Assembly: GCF_000003815.2 (NCBI RefSeq)
Contig: NC_049982.1
Span: forward strand, 22,917,835-22,981,834
Source: Branchiostoma floridae
Lineage: Eukaryota > Chordata > Leptocardii > Amphioxiformes > Branchiostomatidae
Direction: 5' to 3'
DNA length: 64,000 bases
Shown: piece after piece, positions 6,491-55,700 of the stretch
Numbering within the stretch: the first letter of the stretch is position 1
Layout of the letters: every line of letters starts with the position of its first letter
The notes under the pieces: generated by a model
The model's database searches: none
Told to the model about the DNA's origin: nothing
What the model saw: the letters and a program-made list of their open reading frames with translations, nothing else
Translations under genes and position numbers: made by a program

Positions 6491-7334
6491 TGGTCTGATG
6501 TCTCCTTGACCTTGTAACAGGAAGCAGATTGCGCGTAGATTGCCTTTTCACCGTCGGACGACCATTGCCGTGATGATTGTTGTGTCTAGTCCATATTGAA
6601 AGTTTCGATTGCTTCTAACTTGTATGACCTTTTGCTATTACTGCTGAGATTAGGTTCTTAGGGCGGGGGTCGCTTTTGCACTTCCTCGCTGACCTTGGTA
6701 CATCTCTATAAGGTGGTGTTGACAAGAACAATGTAAATGCTGGCTACAGGTTTCTTGGGGATAGAACAACCCATATTCTCAAAAAGAGGCATTTTATGTT
6801 ACCTTGCCTCCTAAACTCAGCGATGATTATCTTTTTGCTCTAAGTGGTAACGTTAAGACAAGGGCCGTTCTGAGTTGCCCACATACTTTGGAAGTTGGCA
6901 TGCATATTTCAGGATAGAGATTGCGATCTACCATGATCGCCTCTTCTGCCTTCAGGGCCTTTTCGACAGAACCTGTTAGGGTGGTCTCCCATTATAAATC
7001 ATTGATAATATTTCACGTCTATCCATTGATCAAAGAGGGCCTGGCTTCTTCAGCCAACAAATCATCAATTGTCACATTGCTTTTATTTTTATTTTTCATG
7101 TACTCTCAGGCGACAACTTCGTTTTTACAGAGTGGAACCTCGGCTATAGTTTCTTCCCAGCCATCAACTGTTACCATAAACAAGCTATTGTTATGATGTA
7201 TTTCTTAAAAAACACAATGAGTATTTTTGGGAAATAAGAAAACATTGATGCTGCCTATGAATTTGTAAAGACTGCAGTACTGGCGACAACTCTTCCGTGA
7301 AGGTAATCATAAAGAAATAAAAGAATAGACTTAC
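6491..7334. other. Presumed GPCR intron; nothing recognised
   Basis: This lies 3' of the GPCR exon on the minus strand. I searched for the next transmembrane segments (an E/DRY-type TM3 end) and found none. Confidence 0.4.
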
Positions 7335-7605
7335 ACATGAATCTCCCGAGCAGCCACGGTTTGGGGATCCAGGTCTCCAGCAGTGCCACGGGCATGGACA
7401 CCACCAGCAGCAGCAGGTCCGCGATACTCAGGTTCACCAGGAAGAAGTTGGTGGGTGTTCTCATGTCCACGTTCTTCCACACCACGATGCCCACCAGCAT
7501 GTTGCCGGACACTCCCACCACGAAGATGATGCAGTACACCACGGTGACCACCCAGAGGGAGATGGACGGGAGGTCCGGGTCACTCATGGTCATCTCAGAG
7601 GTCAT
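7335..7605 (-). CDS. Class A peptide GPCR, first coding exon (partial gene)
   Basis: Encodes the extracellular N-terminus, TM1, TM2 and first outer loop of a rhodopsin-family receptor. Visible marks: the TM1 GVSGN motif, basic-proline RTPTNFF in the first inner loop, the TM2 NLSIADLLLL motif with its conserved Asp, then PVALLETW and WLLGRFMC, the outer-loop Trp and the TM3 Cys that would form the usual disulphide. This pattern fits the peptide-receptor branch containing orexin, QRFP, NPFF and CCK receptors; I cannot choose among them. The start is the ATG at 7605-7603; the open frame upstream has only non-ATG starts. The exon ends inside the Cys codon at an excellent donor (T then GTAAGT, donor bases 7334-7333). 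A good acceptor (TTTTCTCAG) lies at 7646, so a 5' noncoding exon is likely further right. TM3-TM7 are not in the window and are presumably left of base 1. Confidence 0.85.
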
Positions 7606-10016
7606 GGTCGCCTTGACCACTGAGGTCAAGCTTCTTGGTCTGAACCTGAGAAAATGGGGAAGTAAGCTTTATTTACAGGTATTGGGAAATTACTGGATTT
7701 TCGTCATCAAAACGTATACTCTCTACCAGACTAACTACGCTGGTTATACGGAGAATATTTGCCAGGGGAGTTTGGCCTCCATAGTGTTTTTTCGGCTCAG
7801 TTAAGGGAAATGTTGACCCTATTTCTGCAAAATTGTACTCTCCGCACCTTCTCGTGGAAGCTAGTCAAAATGTACTTGACTGTTTAGTAAATGATAAGAT
7901 AGAATTGTTAAGTAATAGAAAAGAATTGATTTGGTATGATTTAAACGTTTTTATAGCAATAACGGTATAAGGATGTATAAGTTCCTATCAATAAGCCAGT
8001 AATATAACTTTTCACAGTAACTGGATATGATCGCATATCATGCCATCACCAACCACTCACAACACACACCCACTGTCACCAGCACCAGCACCACACTTGG
8101 AGACCTGTCCATATTGACTCCACAGTCGTGTCTTTTCTTGCCGCCCATGGGCCAGCTGCCAGTCAATTACAGACGTGGCAAGGCGCCTTTTCTTTCGGAA
8201 ATTCTTAGAATTCACTAACGCATCCTAGGTGAGTGATTAGATTTGGTCAATCGCGACAGAAGTACAAATCTAATAAACTTGCTTTCAGTCGCCACATCGG
8301 TGAAATGTAATTTTGCAAGGCTTGCAGAAAACGAAGATGAAGTAGTGCAGATTTGCAACATTGGTCGATCGTCTTGAAACGAAATGAGCACTGAATGAGC
8401 TAGAGTTTGGGCTCTCACATCCATGAAATACAATTTGGCAAGGTTTGTGTGGACTTAGCATCTTCCAGCATTGCAAAAAGCATCTCGTACAAAATTAGTT
8501 TAGTCCTTGAATCAGGACGAGTTGGATTCGTGTTTGCTTGAATGTAGAACAGAATTCCGGTCACAAATTTGAGGTGTTAAAAAAAATCGACGAGAAATTC
8601 GCGAAATCTTTCATTTTCTTTTACTTTTAAAGGCGATCAAAATCAGAGACTATCCAATTTAAATTGATTAAGAGAGAAAGGGCTGGTGTGGGAGGGATTG
8701 GTGAAAAATACAATACAGGGCTGACTTCTGAACACGAAACAAGATGTGCCTGCAAAACCAATGAACACAAACGCTCATCGATTGCTTCGTTGTTTCCCAA
8801 ATGTGGTTGTCGAAAATCGTACTGGTGATGTGAATTAGTACAAACCAGCACCAAATTTGATTCAATGATTGAAAAACGGAAATGACGGAGAAAGTCCTTT
8901 TCAAATTCCTTCGCGCCAACAACTGCCCGCTTTCGGTTCTCTCCTTTCTTTATAGTATCGTAAGCTTGACGAAAATCGGAGCTAAACCAATCTACATGCG
9001 GCCTAAAGATCCAGAAATGAAAATCGCTTAATAAATCATCCGGTTTTCGATCCTTTGTAACATTTCTGAACTGGAATTAGTTAAAATCGACTCGCGGTTT
9101 TGAACAATAGCTGTCCAAAAAAAACCTGCTACAAAAGTATTTAAAATGTACCCATGATTAGAGGCTACAGCAAATCTGCTAGTCAGCGAAGAACTTTCTT
9201 TCAGTGCGTTCCTAGTTCTCCCGATCGTTGGCGAAGAAAATGTGTTACGGAGACCTCCAATTAGCTTTGACCTAAAGCCAATTTCAGAGCCATGATGTTT
9301 TGAAGCGGTCGGGATGCTGGGGTGAGCCATTTCGTAATTTGCTACCTTCTGGGAATAATAATGAAGAAGTGTTGGCGTAGTAACTTCATTCATGGAGGAA
9401 CGGTTTGTACCGTTCGATATCTCAGCGGAGTTTCTACTGCGAAAACGCCCTTCGACATCTAAAGTGATTTCAACACCATACAAATGGAGCATACAGGTCA
9501 GAGTCAGATGATCTATAGTTTTTATAGATTTATAGTTTCGTGCTAAGGAAAAACAATATATATCTAGTACAAACGACTTGTGTCAGCGATCGTCTGGCCA
9601 AGCATTGCTCATACAAGTCATGGTACATGGTGTATGTCTGGCCGCAGTATTAGGGGACTGTCTATATACGGCAACAGAAATAACATCAACAGGAAAAACA
9701 AACGTAGACATATTCATCCCTAGCCTGTGCGCATACTAACATCACATTAAACACAAACCTGCAATCTCTTGTGGCATCTAAATTTTAGCTCAGTAGTTAT
9801 GAAATTGTTCCAATTTTAAGAGTATATAAATCTATTGGGAAACTTCGTTCGTAGTACAAAAAAATTCAGGCAGCCTGTTGCAAGGAAACCCACAAGTACT
9901 ACCCACTACGGTGAAATAGGCATTGTGTCTGTCGGAGGTGCTGAATTACTAGTAGGTCTTAGATCGTACAAGCGGTTATGTTTGTAATAAGTCATGGAGA
10001 AAGGGAACATACTTAC
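7606..10016. other. No recognised gene
   Basis: Probably GPCR 5' intron. A 154-codon ATG frame on the minus strand (9492-9028) has no recognisable domain, signal peptide or conserved motif and is not called as a gene. Confidence 0.4.
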
Positions 10017-23039: not shown

Positions 23040-23640
23040 GGGCACAGGAAAAGGAACTCTGTAATGATATATCTGACTTCAAGTCAAAAGATCGCTTTTA
23101 GGGCATGTCAGATATAATGAGTAAATGTAAAGACAGCTGTAGTTGTACCAATTCGCTTGTCAGCAGAAAAAATCGACTGTACAATGATTATAAAATGTCC
23201 CTCTTTCGATGTTTATTGGTCTAATAACAACATGTCTGTGCCACTATAGTCACACGTTTTCGGTAATAATGAATAGTCTGTCGACCTAGGCGAGAGAATC
23301 TGGTTCTAATAGGAGTTAGATTAAAAGTCCTTCATTGTAGGCTGATGGGTCTACTACTGTATACGAAGTTTTATTATCAACAAATGTAATTTCATTGGTA
23401 ATTAGATTAGAAGTTCTTAATTCTAGGCTGATGGGTCTCCTGTATACAAAATTGATAACCAAACAATTGATTATGTTTCAAAATATAATTTCATTGGTAG
23501 TTAGATTAGAAGTCCACAATTCTAGGCTGATGGGTCTCCTGTATACAAAATTCATTACGAAGATATTGATTGTCTATCTTTGAAAATATTATTTCATTGG
23601 TTGTTGTATACAAAATTTCATTATGAAAACATTGGTTGTC
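23040..23640. repeat. Flanking duplication R1 with internal short repeats
   Basis: A block upstream of the plus-strand LRR gene that recurs in the same orientation downstream of it (26875-28060). Shared words include CCCTCTTTCGATGTTTATTG, GTCTGTCGACCTAGGCGAGA and TTATTATCAACAAA. It ends in three to four decayed units of roughly 110 bp built on TTAGATTAGAAGTCC, AATTCTAGGCTGATGGGTCT and GTATACAAAATT. Confidence 0.85.
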
Positions 23641-23860: not shown

Positions 23861-26570
23861 ATGCCACTTTCATGGGCAGTAAGGCTGTATGTAGCGTTGG
23901 CTGTACGCCTGACAGTGCCTTGTGTAGAGGCAGTGGACTGGCAACACTGTCAGAAGGTATCGGCGCTGAGATGTAATGTTGGTAACAGTCTAAGTCGTGT
24001 TGATGGATCAAAGTACCGGTACGACATTGCAGGGTATAGTTCCAGATGGAGCAAACACGAATATTCTGTTCATGAGTACATGGGACCTTTCCATAAAATT
24101 CATTTGCTCCCAGCTTACGTGTCATGTTACGACTGTACAAGCTACGCAGGTGGGTCAAGTAGTTCTGTCACAGGTGAAGTCCATAGTGTCACTTTGAGTC
24201 CCTACCAAAAGGACTGGACAATAGCTTTGATGGTCGATCATGATATTGGTACCCTGAATACAGCTCATGCCACTGCTCTCTTAAAGATACCGTGCGGTAG
24301 ACAATGCAGTATATGGCTGGTGAATTGTAACGTGAGGACAATAGAAGTAGGAGCGCTAGCTCAGCTGTCACGTGTGAAAACCCTGGTCATCTGGCGGAAC
24401 AATCTTCAAACTGTGAGAAACGGCACGTTTGAAGGGATGGAGCGCCTTGAAAAGCTGCTGCTGTTGGGAAACAACATAACGCGTCTGGAGGTAAGACTAG
24501 AGAACACTCGAGTGTCTTGCAATATGTACATAACAAGTAACGTAAAGTTTATGATATTAAGACATCCAAGGAAACAATATCTAAAATGAAATCAATTTCT
24601 AAAACTGGATATGAAGATTTCTTTCGGACGTTTTGAGCGACAAATTCTGCTATTTCATTCTAGTGACACCGAAGAGGAGTGATGGATGTCACTCAAAACG
24701 CCTGAAGTAATCCCAGAATCTTATCAAGTTGTAAGAAGTAATATGAACATGTATCGCTTCGCGTTAAGAAAGCGGGACATTTTTTTTGTTCTTCTATCTT
24801 TTACATAATTCTTATAATTACAAATAAAAAAAAACATTCATATTGTTCATGAATATGAAGCCATCCCATTCTCCTTTTTCTTGCATGATGCGTAATATGG
24901 CTTAGTGACAGATTGGATGATTTGATTAACATTGTTCATTCAACCTCGCTACGTTTTCTATTAAATGCATCTTTACACCATAGAGTGGTGCCTTTGTTGA
25001 CCTACCTGCGCTTCGGTACCTTCTTCTCGTGGACAACCGAATCCTGACCATGGCACCCGACGTGATGTGTGAACTGCAGCTGCATTGGCTGGACATAAAT
25101 GCAAATCATCTCTCTTATATACCGTCTGGGGTACTCAAGAAGCGCGGTCAGTCAAATATATCTTTGTTGTGGATAACAAGCTTCGGTCAATCAGCGACAG
25201 TATGTTTGCTGGGCTGACACAGCTGAGGGAATTGTATCTGCAACAGAACGAAATCTCCTGGATTGCCGATGGTGCGTTTCATTCAAACAAACAATTGTTC
25301 ATGCTAAACCTGGCGAGTAACAAGCTAACTTATGTGTCTGGGCTTTGGTTTATGTTGTCCAAACGGATATCAGTGATTGTAGATAAAAACGTCATTGCAG
25401 CTGTATATCTAGGGAGAGAGGGGTTAAAACTAAACATGATGTTGCCGAAGAATCCCCTGTGCAATCAGCAGGTTCTATGAACATATATGGATGCACTACA
25501 AGTCTTTATTGCACGTTCCCTGGCACAAAATAGTATCCATTCAAAGCAGTTGTCCCGCCTCGTCCCTGGTGGCATCCCCTCCTGTGTTAGTTAACACCAG
25601 TGCACTGCCTTGTCCGACACCATTTGTCGAAATCATGAATGTGACACAAGATCACGTGGGCAAAGAGTACAAAGCAGTCGGTAACGTGTATTGGGAAGAT
25701 CAGCCCACAGTGTCTTGGATGTTTCCCGATGGTTCAGAACATTCTATGAACATAACGTACAATCCTAACACAAGAACGCACTCCAATCTTACAATCGGAA
25801 CCCTAACTGTGAGAGTGGTAACTAACTTAAGGGCTGAGGGCTGGACAAAATGTAAAGACCTCAAAGTGGAATCCGGGAAACAAAAGCTGTGTTTTAACTA
25901 CATGGCGAAGTCAAGATTCACTTTTTGGCTTGAGGGTTCTGGGACATTGGCTTTTTGGAAAAGTCTTTGTACTGTTTCCTCGGAAAGTGGGTCCTACACT
26001 ACAAACGTTGAGGTCATCAAACAAAAGGGATTTACTGACGTTCCTACGATGCATCGAACCATTGAACAGTCGAACTCACGTATGCCAACTGTATCACTCA
26101 CCACCAGGGAGCTTCTCGGTAAGACACACCTAACAACTGCCCCCTCACATGTTAGCACCGTCACTCCCAGGGACCTTCTGGATGAGACTGAAAATATCAA
26201 GCGGTATCTTGTATTTGCAGCAATTGCTGGTTTGGTGCTGGTCATGAGTGTAGTCTGTTGTTTGAAGGACAGAATCTGCCCATCCGATGAAAATGATTCT
26301 GTAGAGCAATCGAATGGTCCCCGAGAGATGACTCCGTGCGCAAAGTGGCCGTTTGAAGACCATGGTTCTACGAATGACTCTGTGATTAGTCCTTACGCAG
26401 AAGGTCGCTTTGAGGACCACGATAGTTTGAATGCATCAGACATTGGTCCTTACGCAGAGGGCAAACTTGAAGACCACGATAGTTTGAATGAATCAGACAT
26501 TAGTCCTTACGCAGAGGGCAAACTTGAAGACCACGATAGTTTGAATGAATCAGAGAATCAAATCATGTAG
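23861..26570 (+). pseudogene. LRR receptor with PYAEG-repeat tail, copy 1 (frame-disrupted)
   Basis: Predicted type I membrane receptor. Exon 1 (23861-24490) has an ATG, a hydrophobic signal peptide, a Cys-rich N-terminal region (DWQHC, SCYDC, PCGRQC) and LRRs (IWRNNLQTVRNGTFEGM), ending at the donor GAG/GTAAGA. Exon 2 starts after TAG at 24984 and continues the LRRs. Compared with the minus-strand paralogue, one base is missing near 25140 and 11 bases are missing in the LRR C-terminal cap near 25463; the latter removes two Cys codons and brings a stop at 25478-25480. From about 25491 the frame is open again: an Ig-like region (PCPTPFVEI, VSWMFPDGSEHS), a Thr-rich stalk, a TM helix (LVFAAIAGLVLVMSVVCCL), and a tail with 3.5 PYAEG units ending at TAG 26568-26570. 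Either a pseudogene or a draft-sequence error; the 11-base deletion argues for real decay. Family name unknown. Confidence 0.75.
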
Positions 26571-26625
26571 AGGGTGACCTTGAGGACTTCGATATTTGAA
26601 TGAATCTGACAACAGGTCATTAATC
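26401..26625 (+). repeat. 57-bp tail repeat of LRR copy 1
   Basis: Three units plus a partial one encoding PYAEG(R/K)(F/L)EDHDSLN-S-D. After the stop codon a further decayed unit can be read (GGTGACCTTGAGGACTTCGA), so the array was once longer. Confidence 0.85.
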
Positions 26626-26789
26626 CAACAAGAAAGAAAGCATTTTTACAGTTCTACAATAAATAATGTTAAAATGTCATTGTTTGATATGGTAACAGTT
26701 TGGTTATTGAGCCTGTGGATTCTGTGTTGGTAATTAAGAATAAAAAATACTGCATTATATTACAGTACAAGTCGGTCTGGTGGTTTTGG

Positions 26790-26860
26790 TTGTAGACTTA
26801 GAATCTTAAGGTTACAATTCCTAGCAGGGTCGATGTTGTGCCCTTGGGAAGGGCATTTAA
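26790..26860 (+). mobile_element. SINE fragment
   Basis: A short piece matching the SINE core: AATTCCTAGCAGGGTCGATG, then TTGTGCCCTTGGGAAGGGCA, comparable with the TTGTGCCCTTGGGAAAGGCA of the full copies. Confidence 0.5.
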
Positions 26861-26874
26861 AAACCTACAGACTA

Positions 26875-28060
26875 GATCGCTTTAAGAGCATGTAAGATAT
26901 GAAATGTTAATGTAAAGACAGCTGCAGTGTTACCAATCCGCCTGTTAGCAGACTGTACGATGATTACAAAAAAAATGTCCCTCTTTCGATGTTTATTGGT
27001 CTTATTATAACATGTCTGTGCCACTATAGTTACACGTTTTCGGTAATGATGAAAAGTCTGTCGACCTAGGCGAGAGCAAACCTGCTTCCAATAGTAGTTA
27101 CATTTATTTAGGAGTCCTTCATCGTAGGCTGGTGGGTCTACTGCATATGAATTCTTATTATCAACAAACCAGTCTATAGCGGCCACTCAAGGGACTGGAG
27201 AAATGTGGCCACTATAGACAGGTGGTCACTATAGAGAAAATGCTGATCTATTGACCACGAGCAATAAGTTACACATGATTTCAGTACCCTCGATCTTTCT
27301 CACCAAGTAACATTGTCTAGATCGTCCCAAAATTCAACTGACCCTGCCAAAATTCAATCTACCGAAAATGATTGATATTGTATCTGTACCTGTATTGCCA
27401 TGCGTAAATTCGCCTACAAAGTCAAAGACTTGCACTCTAATGTTCAAGGCACGCGTACCTTCCACCCAAACCCTGTCGGGTACTCCAGATCTTCGCAAAC
27501 TACTATTTTAAACCCGGCGCAGGGCGACATATGGCCGCTGTATGGTCGCATCAGGCAGTGTTTCTGTATCTACGGGACCGAAAATCGTGTGGCCGTGGCC
27601 GCATTGGACAGGTGGCCGCTATAGACTGTTTCTTAATGCTTAGGCCATTGTACAACATCCAAGTGACCGACAAAAAGTGGCTACTATGCAAAGGTGGACA
27701 CTAATACAGGTTTGACTGTAGTTAGATTAGAAGTCCATAATTCTAGGCTGATGCGTCTCCTATATACAAAATTCATTATGAAGATATTGATTGTGCTTAA
27801 AAATATGATCTTATTGGCAGTTTAGACTAGAAGTCTTTTATTGTAGGCTGATGGTTGTCCTATATACAAAGTTTTATTATCAAAAACGTAATTTCATTGG
27901 TAGTTAGATTAGAAGTCCTTAATTCTAGGATGATAGGTCTCCTGTATAAAAAATCCATCAAGATATTGATTATGTTTCAAAATCTGATTTTATTGGAAGT
28001 TAGATTAGAAATCCATAAATCTAGGCTGTCGTATACAAATTTCATTATGAAAACATTGGT
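26875..28060. repeat. Flanking duplication R1', interrupted by an insertion
   Basis: A copy of R1 (23040-23640). It matches up to TTATTATCAACAAA at about 27165, breaks off, and resumes at about 27720 with GTTAGATTAGAAGTCCATAA and the decayed units. The 555 bases between are absent from R1. Confidence 0.8.
27165..27722. mobile_element. Inserted repeat, CAGTCAAACCTG family
   Basis: The stretch present in R1' but absent from R1. It carries GGCCACTATAGACAGGTGG words and ends in AATACAGGTTTGACTGTA. The reverse complement of its right part recurs at 39043-39225. Probably a non-autonomous DNA transposon; I could not define both ends or a TSD. Confidence 0.6.
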
Positions 28061-28462
28061 TGTCTGATTTACGTCGTGTGTTACGTTTACATATCACAGC
28101 TAACATGTTCTAAACGAAACTTGCAGACATGAAAGGTAAAAAGACTATTAATGTCATAAAAGTTTCACTAGTGACAAAAATCATCACTTATTTCTAACTT
28201 ACAATCACCATAGGCATGTAGAAGTTATAACAAACCACAAAATATTCAACAAAGACAGACAATACCAAGAAAAGAATTGTGGTCTTTACTTCTATTTTCA
28301 TTCGATTATTTTTCGATTATTGGTAACGATGTTTTGAGCTGTTATCTGAATCCTTAAAACTACGTCTCTTCAATTAAGTTTGCTCTCTCTGTAAGTACCG
28401 ATGTCTGATTGATTCAAAGTATCGTGGACTCAACATTTACCATCTTCGTACTGGATGGTCTC

Positions 28463-28905
28463 CTATTCATTCAAACTATCATGGTCCTCAAGTTTCCCTT
28501 CTGCGTAAGGACTAATATCTGTCTCATTCAAACTATCGTGATCTTCAAGGTTACCCTCTGCGTAAGGAATAATATCTGTCTCATTCAAACTATCGTGGTC
28601 TTCAAGTTTGCCCTCTGCGTAAGGACTAATATCTGTCTCATTCAAACTATCGTGGTCTTCAAGTTTGCCTTCTGCGTAAGGACTTATGTCTGTCTCATTC
28701 AAACTATCATGGTCCTCAAGTTTCCCTTCTGCGTAAGGAATAATATCTGTCTCATTCAAACTATCGTGAAATTCAAGGTTACCCTCTGCGTAAGGAATAA
28801 TATCTGTCTCATTCAAACTATCGTGGTCTTCAAGTTTGCCTTCTGTGTAAGGACTCGTATCTGTCTCATTCAAGCTATCGTGGTCTTCAAAGCGACCTTC
28901 CGCGT
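28463..28905 (-). repeat. 57-bp minisatellite coding the receptor tail
   Basis: Eight in-frame units coding (S/I)PY(A/T)EG(K/N/R)LEDHDSLNETD. One unit has F for D in EFHDS. Decayed unit remains continue past the stop down to about 28395. The Tyr in each unit lies on the cytoplasmic side of the TM helix. Confidence 0.9.
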
Positions 28906-30489
28906 AAGGACTAATCACAGAGTCTGACACGTTCGTAGTATACGTAGTATAGCCACGACCTTCAAACGGCCACTTTGCGCACGGGGTCATCTCCCGGTTA
29001 CCATTCGATTGCTCTACAAAATAATTTTCATCGGATGGGCAACATCTGTGCGTCAAACACCAGACTACACTCATGACTAGTACCAAACCAGCACTTGCTG
29101 CAAGTACGAGATACCAGTTGGTATCTTTAGTCTCATCTGCAAGGTCCCTGGGAGTGACGGTGCTAACATGTGAGGGTGCAGTTGTTAAGTGTGTCTTACG
29201 GAGAAGCTCGCTGGTGGTGAGTGATACGGTGCTCACCCGTGAGGGTGCAGTTGTTAGGTGTGTCTTACCGAGAAGGTCTCTGGTGGTGAGTGATACTGTT
29301 GTCATACGTGAGTTCGAGGGTGCAATGGCTCGACGTGTTGTAGGAGGGCGAGTGTGTTTGATGCCCTCAAAGTTTATAGTGTAGGACCCACTTTCGAAGG
29401 AAACAGTACAAAGACTTTTTAAAAAATCTAAAGTTCTCGAACCCTCAAGCCAAAGAGTAAATCTTGACTTCGCCATGTAGTTAACACACAACTTTCGTTT
29501 CCCAGGTTCTACTTTAAGGTCACCCTCTTTACATTTTGTCCAGCCCTCAGCCCTAAGGTTGGTTACCACTCTCACAGTTAGGCTACCGATTGTCAGATTG
29601 TGGAGGGTGCTTATGTTAGGATTGTGCGTTATGTTCATTGAGTGTTCTGAACCATCGGGAAACATCCAAGACACTTTGATAGGTTGATTTTCCCAGTACA
29701 CGTTACCGACTGCTTTGTAATTTCCAGACACATGATTTTGTGTCACGTTCATGATTTCGACAAATGGTGTCGGACAAGGCAGTGCACCTGTGTTGACGGG
29801 CACAATGGGAGATTCCATCAGAGACGAGGCGGGGCAATCTTTTGGAATGGATACTATTGAGTGGCGGCCAACTTTAAATGAAGATTTCCAGCGCATCCAC
29901 AGGTGTTCATAGAGCCAGCTGTTTGCACACGTACAGCGCAGGGGATTGTTCGGCAACATGAATTCTAGCTGGAACACTCTCCCTGGATACACGGATGCCT
30001 CCTTCGCTGATATAGGTTTGGGCGATTTAAACCAAAGTCCAGACATATACGTCAGCTTGTTACTCGCCAGGTTTAACGTGAACAATTGTTTGTTTGAATG
30101 AAATGCACCATGTGCAATCCAGGAGATTTCATTATTTTGCAGATACAATTCCCTCAGCTGTGTCAGCCCAGCAAACATACTGTCGCTGACTGACCGAAGC
30201 TTGTTGTATCACACAAAGATATATATGACTGACCGCGCTTTCTGTAGTACCCCAGACGGTATAAAAGAGATGTGATCTGCACTTATGTCCAGCCATTTCA
30301 GCTGTAGTTCACACATCACGTCGGGTGCATCGTCAGGATTCGGTTGCCCACGAGAAGAAGGTACCGAAGCGCAGGTAAGTCAACAAAGGCGCCACTCTAT
30401 TATGTAAAAAATACATTGGTTAGGAAATGTAGCGAGGATGTGAACACATAGACCATGTCATTCGATCTCCCCCGGGGTTTAATTCCATG

Positions 30490-30720
30490 GTAGCCTCCTT
30501 TGCAGGGTTGGGGGGGGGCTTTTTTGGGGGAGTGATGGGGGGGGGGCTGTTTTGGGATTTTCAACGTGGGCGGGCTTTTTTTTTCCCGGGAAAGGAAGGG
30601 GGGGCAACTTTCCTTCCTGGGTTAATTTTTTTTCCCGGCATAAGGGACCCTGGCCAACTTTAAAAATGGGGAACAAGAGCCCCCCCCCCCCCCCCCCCCA
30701 CACACACACAAAATAAAATA
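30490..30720. repeat. G/C homopolymer-rich stretch in the LRR copy 2 intron
   Basis: Runs of 7-10 G, 6-9 T and a C run of about 19 followed by CACACA, within an otherwise ordinary intron. It looks either like a low-quality or mis-assembled segment or like a real G-quadruplex-prone tract. Confidence 0.6.
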
Positions 30721-32053
30721 TAAGCCAGCCCCGCTCGAAGTCTCCAACAGAGGCTAATTTCATATCATGCATTTGTAAAAAAAAGGGGAAGGTTCTAATT
30801 ATTGGTGACCTAAAATCAAAACAAACGTTGACCAATAATGACTATTTGATTTTTTTTCTTGGAAAATAAATCACAATAAGAGAAAAACAAATAGAAAGGC
30901 AACATTTGCGGGAAAATGCAGCATATTTCAACCATCTCCCAGTCAATACAAAAATGGACTGTTCTAAACATGAATCTAGATAAAGGCAACCCCATGCGGG
31001 AATGGACTCTTCGTGCACGTGTGGCAAATTCAGTTAAAATGGACCAGTTCAAAAAATGAACAACATGGACTTCGCATGTTATCACCTTGGGCCAAAATTC
31101 AATTTTTTTCAAAATTGTCAACTCCGTGCAAGAATCGTCTCTCCCATCGACACGCTTTTTTAAAGTGGTGTAATTCAAAAACACATCCAGTTCATTTCGC
31201 TCTAAAATGACGGAGATGAATCGATTTAACAGGAGAATACGTGAGAGAAGAAACATCAGGAAAAGAAATATATGGTATGTTGTGGTCTGGATGAAACAAA
31301 AATATCCAACTTTCATACATGTCACCTAGTATGTACATGTTACACGTCACACACACACATCATCATCTTGGGTGTTCTCTAGTCTTACCTGCAGACGCGT
31401 TATGTTGTTTTCCAATAGCAGCAGCTTTTCTAGGTGTCCCATCCCTTCAAACGTGCCGTTTCTCACAGCCTGAAGATTATTCCGCCAGATGACCAGGGTT
31501 TTCACCCGTGACAGCTTCGCCAGCGCCCCTGCTTCTATTGTCCTTATGTTACAATTCACTATCCATATACTACATAGTCTACCGCACGGTAGCTTTGAGA
31601 TAGAAGTGGTATAAGCAGTATTCAGGGTGCCAATGTTGTGGTCGACAATAACAAGTATATTGATGGCCTGTTGGGACGGGGTTAAAGCGGCACCCTGTAT
31701 TTCACCGGTAACAGAGCCATTGTGACGTGTACAGTCGTAGCAGGATATAAAGGTTGGGTAGAAATGGATTCTAATAAAAGGCCCTCTGTACTGATTGATA
31801 AAATAACTGTCTTTCCACCATCTAGATTCATACACGCCGATGTCGTACCGGTACTTTGATCCGTCGGAACGACTTCGACTGTCACCAACACTACAATTCA
31901 GCACAGATACCTTCCGACAGTGTTTCCAGTCCCCTGCCTCTACACACGCCACTGCCTGACGTACAACCAACACTAGACAGAATTGTAGTGACCACTTCAC
32001 TGACATGCTGGCGATATCACAGTTTCAAATCATTCACTATCAAAGAACAACAG

Positions 32054-36133: not shown

Positions 36134-38025
36134 GACTTATTTTAGATCTGAAAAATAAAATAGTACATGACTTATCTTTTAACCTCTTAAGATTTATCAG
36201 GCCACATCAATTTCATTCGTTCATTTTTTGATTTGCTACAGAAATATAATGGTAGGCAGATAAAAGAAAATTTAAAAAAAATGAAACAGGTATCGTGCAA
36301 TAGACCAATGTTTGTTTAAAAAAATATGCTTTTTTTAGATAAAATGAAAACTGTAATAGCTAGGAAGACAAGGACTTTTTCCAATCGTTGTTACCAAAAA
36401 ATGAGCATCTGGGGTGTATTCATATCCAAATATTTTTTTCTCAAATAGACTAGAATGAAGTTCAGGAATGAAAACAAATTAGTGTGGTTTAATTGATTCA
36501 AATTCATGTATTAATTGGAAAGTGCTACAGTACACTACAGAGACACACAGGCACATCTGTAAGCTGACTCAGGTCTGTTGCAAAGTTCTTTAAAAAATTT
36601 GCTCCCAGCCTTTTGTTTTTTGTTTTTTACTCGCCAAGAGGAGAGGGCCCATAAAGCAAGGAACCAGAAATTCAATATAAATTGCAGCAGCCCCATTCAC
36701 ATCATCAAAAGAATGACTTCTTTTATATGAGGTGAATCATTGGCAATAACTAAAACGACACAAACAATTTCTTCAGGGGAAATATTTAGAATACTACAGT
36801 AACTATATAAATAACTAAAAGATTGTCTAATCTATTAAATGTTTTTGAATATTTCAAAAACACAAATGGCAAACTGTGGCAGTAAGCCAGGATATCATTC
36901 ATTACTTGCTAGCTCTGTGTCTGTCATGACCTATCTAGTAGAATTAAAGACAGCATGACTAACCTAACTGCATGCTGCTAAAGGTCGTTCTCTACTCTGG
37001 ATAATAAGCCAAGATAATTAGGTGGTCCAACAGGTTTCTCCCTCCACCACACCTTAGTTCACCTGTGACCTTATTACAACAGACATAGTTGGGAGTACGC
37101 ACCCACAAACGGTAAGGAAGTTCAACTTATTACCGCTTTATGATTGTAGAAATCTTAGTTTATCACGGAAATCTCACTAATTGCCTGTTCCCTATGGTAA
37201 TTACTACTGAACTATTACTTCTGAGCCTTTAACAATTACAACTGTAGTACTGTAGCAGGTTTGGACACAATGAGGAAGTAAGATTTGTCAAAAATACACA
37301 GAGAAGTATTGGATCACAGCTGTTAACAAAAGATGATAGACTGTTTAAAATTATTCAATTTTCCGACAAATTGCTCTAAAAGCAAGCTTTGTCAATAATT
37401 TACGACTCTACATGCAAATGAAGTTTTTGAATACAGTGTATTTAATATGCACATGTAAGTCACTCTATGATTTAATCTCTGTGGCATAAGTATTCTTTTG
37501 TTTAAGTGGTCAAAATGGGAGGTGAGTAAATACATGCACATGTATTGAGTCATGGATGTTTTTGGGACACTCCTATTTTGGAAGTCTTTGAAATGACTAC
37601 CTTTGAAGATAATTTTGAAATGGGAAGCTTTTGAAAACTTTTAGAGGTTGAATTCACTGTCAGGCCTTGTAGTACAGAACAACTGTCAATCAGCCAATCA
37701 TACTGTAACATTTCTGTCTACAGTTTACAGATTACAGATTACTACCTTTCCAGTTATTACACTGTCTTATTTTTGCTTTTTTTCTCATTTTATTTAATAA
37801 ATATGATATATTTGATACTTTAAGACTTTATGTCTCTTAATAAAATAATATCAAATATGAATATGTTACTATTTGAGTAGGATCATTTTTCATTACTAAA
37901 ATGGGTTGGAAAATGAGTTAGATGAGTCCATGTCAGCCAAGATGGCCATACAATTGTACCCCTGGTTTATGTCATTTTGCCTGATGGTATACTAGACCAC
38001 GGTCAAACTGTTCATGTGTCTGCAG
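36134..38025. other. Upstream flank of the RTK gene; no exon recognised
   Basis: The kinase gene needs an upstream exon with a signal peptide. I looked here on the plus strand and found no convincing one. AT-rich, with no repeats recognised. Confidence 0.35.
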
Positions 38026-45818
<7,793 letters not shown>

Positions 45819-49777: not shown

Positions 49778-52700
49778 GTAGGCACTTGAACTCTCTTGTA
49801 CTCTTTCTTGTATTTATGTAAAACCACCAGCAGGGGAACATGGTCCTAGAACAGACGACGCAGCTTCTGTATATGAATTCAACGTGATACGGTTGAAGTT
49901 TAGAGGAAAAAAATACGATATACAAAGTGTGCAGTACAAATATGTATTTTTAACTACAGAATTTGCTATTTTACATCATGGTCGCTATCATCCTCTCAGT
50001 TTTTTTTTTATTTCCCTCCAAACATAAAACCCCACTGATATTACATAAAATGGCACAAATTGTCTGAAGCTTTAGAAGTTGAAAGTCTGTAACGTTAGCA
50101 AATTGTCCTGGTTCAATTCAATGTTATGTATGGTATTGTATGATTGACTAATATATGTATATATTGAATTAGTTTTGAAAACCATGCTGACACATCTAGT
50201 TGTGAACCATTAATATTGTTTTAAATTATTCACATAACATTTACATTAATCTTGTATGAAGTTTATATTTCAAACTCATCACAGAACATGTCAACACACA
50301 ATCAGACATTTTAAAAGTTTTTATTGTGCTGATTAAAAGTTAACAAATACAAGTGTGCTGAACAAATACAAATGTACTATCAGCCTCAAAATTTCAATTC
50401 AATGTTCACTCCTTAATACATAAACATCAAGATATCATTTTCTTGAAAACCTTTCCACAAACATTTCTAGATCTTAATATATCATATTGGACTTCAAACT
50501 CCAGTAATACTCTTTTCCAATTATACATGTACATTGGATCAGGCCCATCTATTTAGTACAGAAAGCTGAAATCAAACTATAACGTTGCAACCTTAAACCA
50601 AAACAAATCTTAAGTCTTCACAATACAAAAGGATTAATTATCAGGTTTGCAAATGGTTAGATGCTTCACACAGCATCCACTATATCCTTAAATTTTCCCT
50701 GTCTGAAAACAATCTGAAGTCCAACAAGTATTTAACCACAACTATGAATTGATATCAATAAAACTATGAAATGATGTAAAATGTCTAGTATTTTTGAAGT
50801 CACAAACTGAAAATTAGTACAATTGTATTAACATTGTTATTGCATATTGAAAACAGGAGACATTACAGATACAACAATAAGTTGAAACCATATACAACTG
50901 ATAACTCAATTATTAATGCATTGGATTTACTCCAGAGAATGTTTTAATGAATCAGTTGTTAGCAATCTTCGTAGCAAATTCCAAGTAGAGTTCTAGAAAC
51001 ACTTTGTCGTATGATTTCATCTTAAATATAATCACCTATGAATAACATCAAGATCAAATGCAGTATCCATGTCACAGTAAGTTAGTACTTAAGCAAAAAT
51101 CATCAGAAAAGGATATTGGTTGTCTTAAAGTTTTTTCTTAATTTTTTTTAAACATTGCAATTGTGAACATTTTATTACATTAAATGTACAACAATTCATG
51201 TTCTAAGTAAGCATACTACTAGTAAGTTGATATGAAAAATGGTGACACAGCAATTATTTTTGTTTTCAATTCATTAAATCGAGAAATATCTTTTCCAACA
51301 AAAATGCACCTGACAGCATAATGTACATGCCAAATGCTATGCCTTCTTAGAAATTGAATCCTTCAGATTTCTGTCATTTAGAATGTTCTGAAGATGTTGT
51401 CATGAGAATCAAAATTACCATACAATTTTTAAAATCAATGACATACATTAAAATCTGCTAATTACCACCTATGGTCTATGTTGTTGCTACTAGTATTTGG
51501 TATTTGTCCTATTGCTAAAGCAATGACATACAGAATGTTTAATTGTAAACTGTGAACTACATGCACTTTTTAAGTATAGCACATTCAATGTTTTTATCAT
51601 TTGACAGTATGTGTAATGAGCAACTAACAAAGTACACAAAATGTATATACAAACTTATCATTAACTTTTCTGTGTACTTTTAACAACACTTGTGCTTGGA
51701 GTTCAGTCTGTATCCCAGGATACCACAATCATATGCATGTACATGACTTAAGGCAGTAAGGCAGTTACATGTATTTTGTGAGGTTTGAGAGACCCAGCTA
51801 AGTAATCTGATTACAACATTGCCTTAAGATTATTTTTTCCTTTTTTTCTTTTGTACCAATGATCTTGGAAGGATATCCCTTCAGCTACCAACTTCAACCT
51901 CTCTCTTTTGGTAAATTTTAGGGGAAAATAAAACATCATTTTAATTTTTGAAAAATTGCAAAAAAAAATTACTAAGTTAAACCCTATAACAGAAAATGAC
52001 TCAACCTCACCTACAACTTTACAGATCTTACTAATCAATAGGTTTTGGGTGATGTTTCCCCATAGTTGTACAGATGATGGCACTGATCAGAGACAGTTGT
52101 GCTGGAGCCATAATGTGGGTTTGTACCTGAGGATTTACTGCAAGACTGATAAACACCTGACATTGTTAACCTGGTTGTCACAGTAGCTGTGCTGCTTGTG
52201 GTTGGGAAAACATTAGAGTCTGGAACTGTAGGGCCTGTTGGGGTTGTATCTGCTGCTGATCTGGAGCCATGTTGTGGGTTTACCATGGATTTTGTGATAA
52301 ACTGGCACTCAGCCAATGCTGTCTGATTTTGGGTGGTTGTTACAGCAGCAGCTGCTGCATTATTGTTGGCGGTTGGGAAAACTGTAGAGCCTGTGATTTG
52401 GGACATATTATGCAAAACAGCAGATCTTGAGTCATATTGTGGGTTTATCAAGGATTTTGTGATAACCTTGGACTCCCCTAGTGCTGCCTGACCAAGGCTG
52501 GATGTTACAGTAGCTGCTGTGGTGTTTGTGAGTGTGCAGTCATCGGACTCTGGGTCTGTGGCAGCTACAGGTATAGGGCCTTTTGGGGTCATGTTCACAT
52601 CTTCATTTAGACCATTTGAGACAGCCGTCCCTGACTCATACTGTGGGTTTCTGACAAGGGATTTAACTGCAGCCATGGGTGAAGCCAATGGTGTCTGATC

Positions 52701-55700
52701 ATGGCTACATTTAGTTGTCACATTTGATGTGTTGCTTGTGGTGTTTGAAACAACACTGGGGTCTGGATATGGAGGGAGATTCTTGGCCCTCCTTTTGGAC
52801 CAAATCACAAAGACGATGGCACCAAAGAGGACAGCACTGGCTCCTGTACCACACACAGACCGAACAAGAACAGGCAGGAAGAATTTAGGAGCAGACTCCT
52901 TAAAACTCACCGTGCTTTCTGGATGGTCTGAGGTGTGGGGGATAGTAAGAGGTGAAGTTGACTGTTCTATACCAGATGTAAGAGTTGTGAGCTTGTCCAC
53001 TTGGAATTCTACAGACAGTGTGGCAAATGTGGAGCCAACAGGACTTGCTGCAACACAGACGTACAGACCAGCATCTGCTGCAGTTATGTTTATGGTCATG
53101 GTACCATTGGCATTCACCGTCTCTCTCCCTCCTGACTCAACAGTTTTGTTCAATCCAGATGGGAGAATGACTGTGATGTCTGGTGTGGGGATTCCTGAAG
53201 CCTCACAGACCAAACTCACTTCCTCTGTTGGCGTGTTACGTTTGTTTCTCTCAAATCTCACAATGTTTGGTTCTTCCTGATCACAGTACATCAGATCTAT
53301 AAGACTTATATCTTTAAGCTTTTGTCCAGAGATTTTGTCAGGCTGGGAACAAATGATCTGGTTTTCAAATGTATACGATCCAGTCATCTGTACCCTAAAG
53401 GGAAACATCCTACAGTCACAATGCCAGGGGTTGTTGCCAATGTAAACAACAGAGATTGATGCCAGCATCTTATGGGCCATCATGGGAAGTATTTCCATTT
53501 GGTTTTTAGAAAGGTAGAGTTTAGAAATGTGTCGAACTTTTGAGAGCTCTTCAATGGGAAACACTTTGATGTTGTTGTCCAGCAAGTCAATGTGAGACAG
53601 ACTTTTCAGGTCTGTGAAAGTTCCAGCCTGAATGTCTGTGATGCCGTTCAATACTAGCCCAAGTTTTTCCAACTTACCCAACCCTGTAAACATTCCAGCT
53701 CTGAGACTTGACAAATTCATGTTCATATTCAAGTCTAAAAAATTGAGTTCTGAAGTTTGATTAAAAGTTCCATCCTGAATGTTGCTGATAACATTATTGC
53801 TCAGGATAAGTCTGCGCAAATTTCCTAACCCTGCAAACATGCCAGATCTAAGCCTTGTTAGCTTGTTCTGATACAGGATCAACCTTGTTAGCTTCAATGT
53901 TGTATTAAAAGTTCCTGCCTGAATATCATTGATTTCATTGCCATGACACCACAGTTCTTGCAAATTTACCAATCCTGTAAATATGTCAGATCTGAGCCTT
54001 GTTAGCTTGTTCTGATACAGGATCAACATTGTTAGCTTCAATGTTGTATTAAAAGTTCCTGCCTGAATATCATTGATTTCATTGCAATGACACCACAGTT
54101 CTTGCAAATTTACCAAACCTGTAAACATGTCAGATCTGAGCCTTGTTAGCTTGTTCTTGTATAGGTACAACATTTTAAGTTTCTGCATTGTACCAAAAGT
54201 TCCTGCCTGGATATTGTTAATGCTGTTACAGCACAGATGAAGTTGGTGCAGGTTTTCTAACCCTGTAAACGTGTTTTTTTTAAGGATTGTAAGGTGGTTT
54301 CTGTTAAGACATAATAGTATCAAGATTGACAAGGAACTGAATGAGTGGTCATTGATTGTAGAGATATGATTAGTTGTCAAATCTAAAACTTTCAAGTTTT
54401 TGTATTTTGAGAAGTCAGACTGATCCAAAGTTGTAATCAGGTTATCTTTCAAGAACAAGTCCCTGATGTATGGATAAAGGTTTTGTGGAATGCTAGAGAT
54501 ATTCATACTGTTACAGCTGCAGAAAGGTGCTGGTGGGCAGCTGCAGGAAGCTTCTGTTGGCCCGCGCACCAGGATGACCAGAAGAAATATCAGCATACAT
54601 GCTAGCTTTGTCTCCATGATCCAGTCTCTGTACAGGTGTAAAATTTATGACCAATATAGTTATGATATAATGCTATTACTTGTACCATTAAAGTAGCAAA
54701 ATAGAAAAATATAACTACGTAGATAAAATGTGAAATTGTTTACGAGTATGTGGCTACGTCAGTGTTTATGTTGCTATCTATTATAACAGCATTGTTCAGA
54801 GTACAATTATGTGTATTTATCAATTCTATGCTATTCATTACAAATACTAGCTTTTTGAATAATCACAGGGAAGGACTCAATTTTGTGGGGTGTTGTGAAA
54901 AATTGTGAAATAAAAAAAGATATTTCAAAATAAGGCACAAATATTCGTGGAAAAAAACATGTACAAGAAAAGCAAAAATGTGAAGGCCTGACGATAAGTG
55001 TAAGATGGCTGTTCACTTAATTCAGTCCGTTTTACTGCAATGTTTAACAGGCTGCAATATTGTTCTAGTATATCCATGTACTAGAATTATGAATAAACCA
55101 TTCTATTATATTTAGTACAATTGATAATAGAAACAAATTGGACAATTCATTTAACTATGGGGATCTTTATGGGCATCTAATTGAATTTAGCTTTTAATTA
55201 CAAAAACACTTTGACAGATTTCTTAGTGTAGTGCACTAGACTAAAATGTGCTGTTATGTTATTCTGTGACGGCTCTATCATCAGTTATTACATGACATAT
55301 TATTTTTTGTCACATATCCCTTAGTACCAATCATTTGTCCAACCAACCAATTGCAAATTGTTACCGCTTGCCAACGACTCTCCTTAACACTGTTACCATG
55401 TTGAATAGGGAACAGAAAACAAACTAACCCAAGGCTTCTATAACTAAGTTAATAAAACTTAGAGATAAAAGGGAAATTTGTTCCTTAGTTTTCTAAAGAA
55501 TTTTATGACTGCATGACTTTTAAATCTGGCTGCATCCATGTTTGGGCTTAGCTGACTAAAACCACATTGATTGTGTAAGACTTGTATGTTAAATCTAGCT
55601 TAATAAAAATTTGAGACACAATTGGTATCGAATGTATGTATGACTCAGCAAAGTTTCACGTTTTGCTAACCTGACTTTGGAGGATGCTTTAAGCACAAAA

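Follow-up and report, generated by a model that had tools for sequence, protein, structure and literature searches.

Two converging leucine-rich repeat (LRR) genes of Branchiostoma floridae raise the question of what a receptor tail built from a tyrosine-bearing repeat might do, and whether the genes that carry it are still receptors. They lie in a stretch of 64,000 nucleotides (contig NC_049982.1, positions 22,917,835 to 22,981,834; 'the window'), in which a first-pass annotation had described a tail-to-tail pair of LRR receptors. The unusual tail reported there is real, in two broken copies, and the pair belongs to a two-exon LRR receptor family of about 29 loci. We give slightly better than even chances to the pair being decaying inverted duplicates within a family of LRR receptors whose tails form phosphotyrosine docking ladders; the family and its tyrosine module are the finding worth keeping.

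Reading of open reading frames (ORFs) places the converging starts at ATG 23861 (+) and ATG 32006 (-), bearing out the tail-to-tail arrangement. The parts of the two genes are as follows (TM, transmembrane; TRF, Tandem Repeats Finder).

23861-26570, +: span of gene 1
23861..24490, +: gene 1 exon 1, with signal peptide, Cys-rich N-terminal domain and first LRRs (ORF; relatives with the same boundary)
24984..26570, +: gene 1 exon 2, with LRRs, cap, membrane-proximal domain, stalk, TM and tail (tblastn with relatives L021/L022; ORF list)
26205..26264, +: gene 1 TM stretch YLVFAAIAGLVLVMSVVCCL (read from the translation)
26385..26554, +: gene 1 PYAEG array, three whole 57-bp units (TRF; units)
32006-28463, -: span of gene 2
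31392..32006, -: gene 2 exon 1, with signal peptide, Cys-rich domain and first LRRs (ORF; the probe for family loci)
28463..30396, -: gene 2 exon 2, LRRs to stop (tblastn with relatives; ORF 28463-30208)
29309..29857, -: gene 2 membrane-proximal domain, annotated earlier as an Ig-like region (family matches in the genome)
29054..29113, -: gene 2 TM stretch YLVLAASAGLVLVMSVVWCL (read from the translation)
28467..28915, -: gene 2 PYAEG array, eight units (TRF score 674; units)
30209..30211, -: TGA codon, in frame, within the LRR-coding part of gene 2 exon 2 (the stop bounding ORF 28463..30208)
28400..28462, -: decayed ninth unit beyond the TAG stop of gene 2 (translation aligned by eye, no indels)

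The two genes are 64% identical over exon 1 and 78% over the membrane-proximal domain, and exon 1 of gene 1 ends in a donor context (CTGGAG followed by GTAAG). Pfam LRR_8 scores above cut-off in pieces of both, as it does in the relative L026, which confirms the annotated LRRs; the signal peptide and single TM helix come from reading only, of hydrophobic N-termini and a TM-like stretch. One open frame covers TM helix and tail in each gene, and the predicted cap (RCTCA...WLYE) is readable in gene 2 and in relatives but falls in a broken stretch of gene 1. Several copies of a repeat of about 99 bp flank the genes at 23300-23620 and 27700-28050 (2.2 copies by TRF at 23382-23605, the rest by eye).

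The tails themselves are encoded by 57-bp tandem arrays at 26385-26554 (TRF, 3.0 copies, score 277) and 28467-28915 (7.9 copies), whose 19-residue unit reads [I/T]-[S/G/I]-P-Y-[A/T]-E-G-x-[F/L]-E-[D/F]-H-D-S-L-N-[E/A]-[T/S]-[D/E]. Gene 1 carries three whole units and a fragment and gene 2 carries eight, of which the last lacks two residues, so that one tyrosine recurs every 19 residues, as had been predicted. Across the ten full units of the pair P, Y, E, G, E, H, D, S, L and N do not vary, and silent sites differ; pooled over pairs of these units, the proportion of non-synonymous differences (pN) is 0.084 against 0.357 for synonymous ones (pS). This ratio, together with recurrence across the genome, makes the repeat more than chance.

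That recurrence was followed through the window's own genome (513,431,437 bases, 431 contigs), with searches that score the best candidates only, so that all counts are lower bounds (for exon 1, the best 150 of 1063). The exon-1 protein of gene 2 finds at least 29 loci, with E of 2e-21 or lower and with fragments of one locus merged in the count, and its weaker matches lie chiefly in the LRRs; the membrane-proximal domain likewise finds at least 29 strong loci (E 1.3e-29 or better) plus two weak ones. A PYAEG query reaches 25 of the 29 at E<=1e-3, the remaining four being found by longer tails, and at the same threshold a 370-residue tail query hits, among the matches listed, only loci of this LRR receptor family. 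The architecture of the family is as follows: signal peptide, Cys-rich domain and first LRRs in exon 1; further LRRs, membrane-proximal domain, stalk, TM helix and Tyr-rich tail in exon 2. Splice signals agree with it, with an AG acceptor in 20 of 24 exon-2 ORFs and GT immediately following the conserved end of exon 1 in 18 of 21 exon-1 matches.

Twenty-five genes could be read, 23 of them in loci L021-L043 and the other two being the window pair (L025 and L044 gave none by patterns; L023 holds a long run of N and was read from TM to tail and over a portion of the membrane-proximal domain). For four more loci, on contig C10 at 17.19, 18.485 and 19.13 Mb and on C6 at 2.08 Mb, coverage stopped at the part-read tails of two, L045 and L046. 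A single open frame runs from LRRs through TM to PYAEG units in 18 of the 25 (for one of these, L040, exon 1 lies outside the fetched stretch). TM helix and units share a frame in 24, L038 being the exception, in line with the first-pass annotation. A tree of 24 rows (L023 left out, L040 represented by exon 2 only, exon 2 partial for gene 1, gene 2, L027, L037 and L042) groups the window pair (100/100) and joins it to L021, L022 and L027 (100/100), apart from 19 others including L024. Part of a diverged family tail, interrupted by two stops, survives as a remnant at G000 C10:19017976-19018257 (E 3.8e-14).

The description of a tail consisting of PYAEG units holds for the pair; family-wide the units are only a juxtamembrane module, and most tails add further tyrosine arrays. 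Unit number does vary between genes, as had been suggested, from 2 to 8 in 24 ORFs (17 have two, three have three, L021 and L024 have six each, L023 has seven and gene 2 eight), with one unit in two diverged, part-read tails; a unit was counted if it kept at least four of six core letters, which favours conserved units, and L038 was left out. The longer common tail continues after PYAEG with VPYG, AAYAG, RPYST, AAYG, CYQHP and AYQQ and then an array, whose unit is CYNSP + TYDQ in the larger clade and AYQQ, SYEN/SYED and CYQHP in the window's clade (L021, L022, L027). YxxP occurs four to nine times in 16 of the 24 tails, once or twice in four and not at all in four (gene 1, gene 2, L023 and L024), and exceeds shuffled tails at a fraction of <=0.05 in 12 of 24 (for example, 9 against 2.53 expected). 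The PYAEG-only tail appears to have arisen at least twice, provided that the ancestor had the distal part, because L024 sits apart from the window pair in the tree. Among large arrays, L022 has 33 tail tyrosines and 8 YxxP, and L037 has 28 and 9, its LRR part not being open.

Selection on these tails was gauged in the larger clade (clade B), where the dN/dS segments took 16, 13, 17, 16 and 15 of 19 entries, those in which both anchors were found. Median dN/dS is 0.26 for the PYAEG core (16 rows) and 0.32 for the mid tail (15 rows), lower than in the ectodomain (LRRs 0.42, 16 rows; cap plus membrane-proximal domain 0.39, 13 rows), a comparison of medians only, made without a significance test. 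The TM segment (0.41) was not used as evidence because its anchors are loose (219 columns). In the mid tail, none of the 15 clade-B rows departs from Tyr at any of the six Tyr columns, and Ser columns are nearly as constant. Among the 70 units counted in 24 ORFs, Tyr is retained in 68, Pro-1 in 70, Gly+3 in 69, His+8 in 69 and Leu+11 in 68; Pro, Gly, His and Leu are thus conserved to the same extent, and the constraint covers the entire core rather than Tyr alone. Both Tyr codons are used in 6 of 11 tail contexts. A sign of diversification on the LRR concave face (mean entropy 1.05 at 12 candidate positions, 0.70 at 147) was not relied on.

Intact members of the family are most likely phosphotyrosine docking receptors, a reading that draws on analogy with the YxxP ladder of p130Cas and with BbLcLRR, an LRR receptor of Branchiostoma belcheri. 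The 15 YxxP of p130Cas become Crk SH2 sites once phosphorylated, and three or more YxxP per protein are reported to be rare (PMC2689226). The family resembles the p130Cas substrate domain in its repeated YxxP. It differs in that p130Cas is a non-enzymatic scaffold (PMC2689226), whereas here the ladder would belong to the tail of a receptor; the window pair, for its part, is without YxxP. In BbLcLRR, also an amphioxus membrane LRR receptor with several tail tyrosines, these are phosphorylated by amphioxus or human Lck and bind SH2 phosphatases (PMC8211107). BbLcLRR differs in placing three tyrosines in hexamers of the immunoreceptor tyrosine-based inhibitory motif (ITIM) or ITIM-like type and in having a WSC domain, and the portion of PMC8211107 available mentions no repeat tail. 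Its hexamers DDYATV (searched as DYATV), HDYSEV and HDYDDP occur in none of 26 family ORFs, and WSC has no match in the window genes, 18 family members or L026.

In such an intact member the LRR ectodomain would face a ligand, and a single TM helix would lead into a long tail serving as a ladder of phosphotyrosine docking sites. Next to the membrane this tail has PYAEG units, most often two, with as many as seven at other loci and eight in gene 2; conserved single tyrosines follow, and tandem arrays come last. The distal arrays would offer YQHP/YNSP/YICP sites (Crk/Nck-type pYxxP), to which the window's clade would add YEN (Grb2-type pYxN). YxN is the Grb2 preference and YxHP that of Crk. Once a ligand clustered the receptors, a Src-family kinase would be able to phosphorylate the ladder, SH2 adaptors would be recruited, and unit number would set the valency. 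The PYAEG unit itself would bind a reader of its own, which is putative because the unit falls outside the standard motifs, and its phosphotyrosine role is correspondingly a suggestion. What is said here of the family's cytoplasmic topology, phosphorylation, adaptors, ligand, expression, function and any immune role we infer. Tyr-tailed receptors are already known; an LRR family of about 29 genes with tails more constrained than their ectodomains, and with a private Tyr module joined to SH2-type arrays, would suit study of the evolution of multivalent Tyr tails in animals other than vertebrates, and of whether a docking motif can be newly invented within a lineage.

Several points count against docking, the bare comparison of medians among them. 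As Pro, Gly, His and Leu are conserved like Tyr, the unit need not act through phosphotyrosine, and against ITIM, the corresponding activation (ITAM) and switch (ITSM) motifs, YxxP, YxN, YxxM and NPxY it fits none. A single Tyr codon is used in 5 of 11 tail contexts, where silent change is thus not demonstrated. YxxP misses the fraction of <=0.05 in the other 12 tails, and tandem copying inflates YxxP counts and homogenizes units. Seven of the 25 genes lack one open LRR-to-PYAEG exon, with exon 1 breaks in 3 of 18 (L030, L032 and L043), and the window pair is broken in both genes and is also without a YxxP or YxN array.

The breaks in the pair are plain from tblastn with relatives. Exon 2 of gene 1 falls into three frame segments (24984-25139, 25106-25459 and 25449-26141), with frame changes at about 25106-25139 and 25449-25459, both in the LRR exon; that of gene 2 falls into two (30396-30322, then from 30328) and also meets the TGA. 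Neither gene is therefore open as assembled, which the first-pass annotation did not bring out. We see an even chance that they are plain pseudogenes in which PYAEG number records neutral minisatellite drift, the unit working, if at all, only in intact relatives. The frame changes in both genes and the stop in gene 2 speak for this, as do the decayed extra units behind both ends (a fourth lies beyond the lost frame of gene 1) and the PYAEG-only tails of the window pair, L023 and L024, which lack the distal part. Remnants of the distal Tyr arrays were sought behind the window genes and none was convincing. Set against drift are dN/dS values between gene 1 and gene 2 that stay below 1 (exon 1 0.52, membrane-proximal domain 0.34, stalk/TM 0.70), the excess of pS over pN among the units, and L024, with six units in an open exon 2.

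Were the breaks assembly errors, the pair would encode working receptors with a PYAEG-only tail, which we consider unlikely. Homopolymer-rich, low-quality-looking sequence does occur at 30500-30740 in the gene 2 intron, and isolated breaks are found at other family loci too; the lesions, however, fall outside that stretch, there are four of them over two genes plus the decayed units, and the next best tail matches are 62-67% identical, so there is no second copy for comparison. That the lesions are biological is a tentative reading.

It is doubtful, to a like degree, that the tail is instead an acidic, Ser-rich trafficking or scaffold module needing no Tyr phosphorylation, through, as we would presume, CK2-type sites in DSLNE or alternatively a peptide centred on PYA..(F)EDH.SL. 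Such a module would account for the Pro, Gly, His and Leu of the unit being held as firmly as Tyr (70/70, 69/70, 69/70 and 68/70) and for the nearly invariant Ser columns, but not for the six invariant mid-tail tyrosines or for SH2-type Tyr motifs being repeated in the distal arrays. An inhibitory receptor of ITIM type, as in BbLcLRR, is highly improbable: VPYAVV in L045 and L046 fits the consensus by reading and L022 has three S-x-Y-x-x-V (ITIM-like) matches, but PYAEG units do not fit with their Gly at +3, the window pair has no match to the ITIM, ITAM or ITSM consensus, the BbLcLRR hexamers are absent, and the only further ITIM matches lie in an upstream stretch of L042 (three ITIM, one ITAM).

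Relatives give a clue to the origin of the unit. L045 and L046 carry IVPYAVVYDN...IAPYAITYDVEDDEITPYAEGHLRDHDSL, L021 has an intermediate SPYAVGHIEDH, and open frames on C9, C16 and C18 hold the module IxPYAVxY in tandem (IRPYAVRYQ/VQPYAVAYD, IQPYAVRYQEDH/IQPYAVKYQEH and IRPYAVAYN/IQPYAVTYD). The C16 copy as query gives at least 59 matches at E<=0.01, in at least about 44 open frames on 13 contigs (itself included; best 150 of 160); two of these frames were read (L047 and L048), with L049 coming from a separate search, and the motif was read in these three. Many matches to this query lie on C16 near 17.0-17.8 Mb. Aligned with PYAEG pairs, the C16 copy scores at a level reached by 0 of 3000 shuffles for L030, 0 for L021 and 2 for gene 2; the C18 copy is weaker in the same test (15, 1 and 107). 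Module and unit share an Ile-x-Pro-Tyr-Ala core in tandem pairs, with EDH after the core in the C16 copy, and differ at +4, where the module has a Tyr and the PYAEG unit another residue. Because of the forms in L045, L046 and L021, the genome matches and the shuffle alignments, the PYAEG unit probably derives, by remodelling, from a tail module that is dispersed across the genome. We advance as a speculation, itself quite unlikely, that cephalochordates have a phosphotyrosine docking code of their own, in which a tandem PYA(V/E)x module in tens of proteins would meet its own SH2- or PTB-type reader, and that in the LRR family this module grew to as many as eight copies and was joined to Tyr arrays of Crk and Grb2 type, receptor output being tuned by DNA repeat number. 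The related PYAVxY module would be a direct bait in a search for the reader.

The membrane-proximal domain had been annotated as immunoglobulin (Ig)-like, which sequence comparison does not support: Ig models in Pfam up to E 1 are matched by 0 of 18 family members, and a family profile finds nothing among PDB sequences up to E 10. Its fold could still be Ig. An LRR-Ig (LRRIG) assignment was set aside, no Ig domain being matched after the LRR cap. Two weak relatives of the domain lie in other open frames, at G000 C4:30414889-30415209 (E 4.5e-6) and C8:13065226-13065648 (E 5.8e-4). In the tails, Adeno_PV on L022 (2.1e-6, 27.6 bits, cut-off 27) and DUF3298 on gene 2 (2.1e-5, 25.8 bits, cut-off 24.1) were rejected as compositional, a judgement made because both are just above cut-off on repetitive or very short stretches. 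A tail profile matches two PDB entries, both designed proteins (E 0.077 and 2.4), taken as chance. Viral contigs gave nine pattern matches, none confirmed, and the gene 2 ORF has no match in phage records.

Two other amphioxus LRR proteins invite comparison. The variable lymphocyte receptor (VLR)-like Bf66946 (PDB 4xsq), a short LRR protein, matches gene 2 weakly in the LRRs (E 2.6e-6), and its set was chosen for having no domain beyond LRRNT, LRRs and LRRCT, whereas the family adds N-terminal and membrane-proximal domains, TM and tail (PMC4731796). FrLRR of B. belcheri is, like the family, an LRR surface protein, found via Grb2, but has a folate-receptor domain, Slit2-type LRRs and a predicted glycosylphosphatidylinositol anchor (PMC10199209). 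Among the matches listed by text searches of the open-licence literature there is no paper on the family or its repeat, 'PYAEG' giving an unrelated match only, and the portion of PMC2575513 (amphioxus innate receptors) available mentions neither. This LRR receptor family has apparently not been described before.

Elsewhere in the window, an LRR gene at 52035-54644 (-), one open frame, does encode an Ig domain (Pfam Ig_3 1.5e-8), and the Tyr repeat of its tail is of another kind (NPQYESGTAV, NPQYDSRSAV and NPHYGSSTTV, with NPQH in one copy). About 6 kb beyond the pair, at 37985-41184 (+), open frames resemble receptor-type tyrosine kinase exons, a single gene not being established; the nearest PDB chains to the kinase piece are of the insulin-receptor family. 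The window also holds a Mos1-type transposase helix-turn-helix fragment (61871-62203, +; Pfam HTH_48), a 45-bp minisatellite of 20.7 copies with more than one open frame (62923-63847) and an exon of a Rhodopsin-type G-protein-coupled receptor (7255-7668, -; Pfam 7tm_1 5.5e-16).

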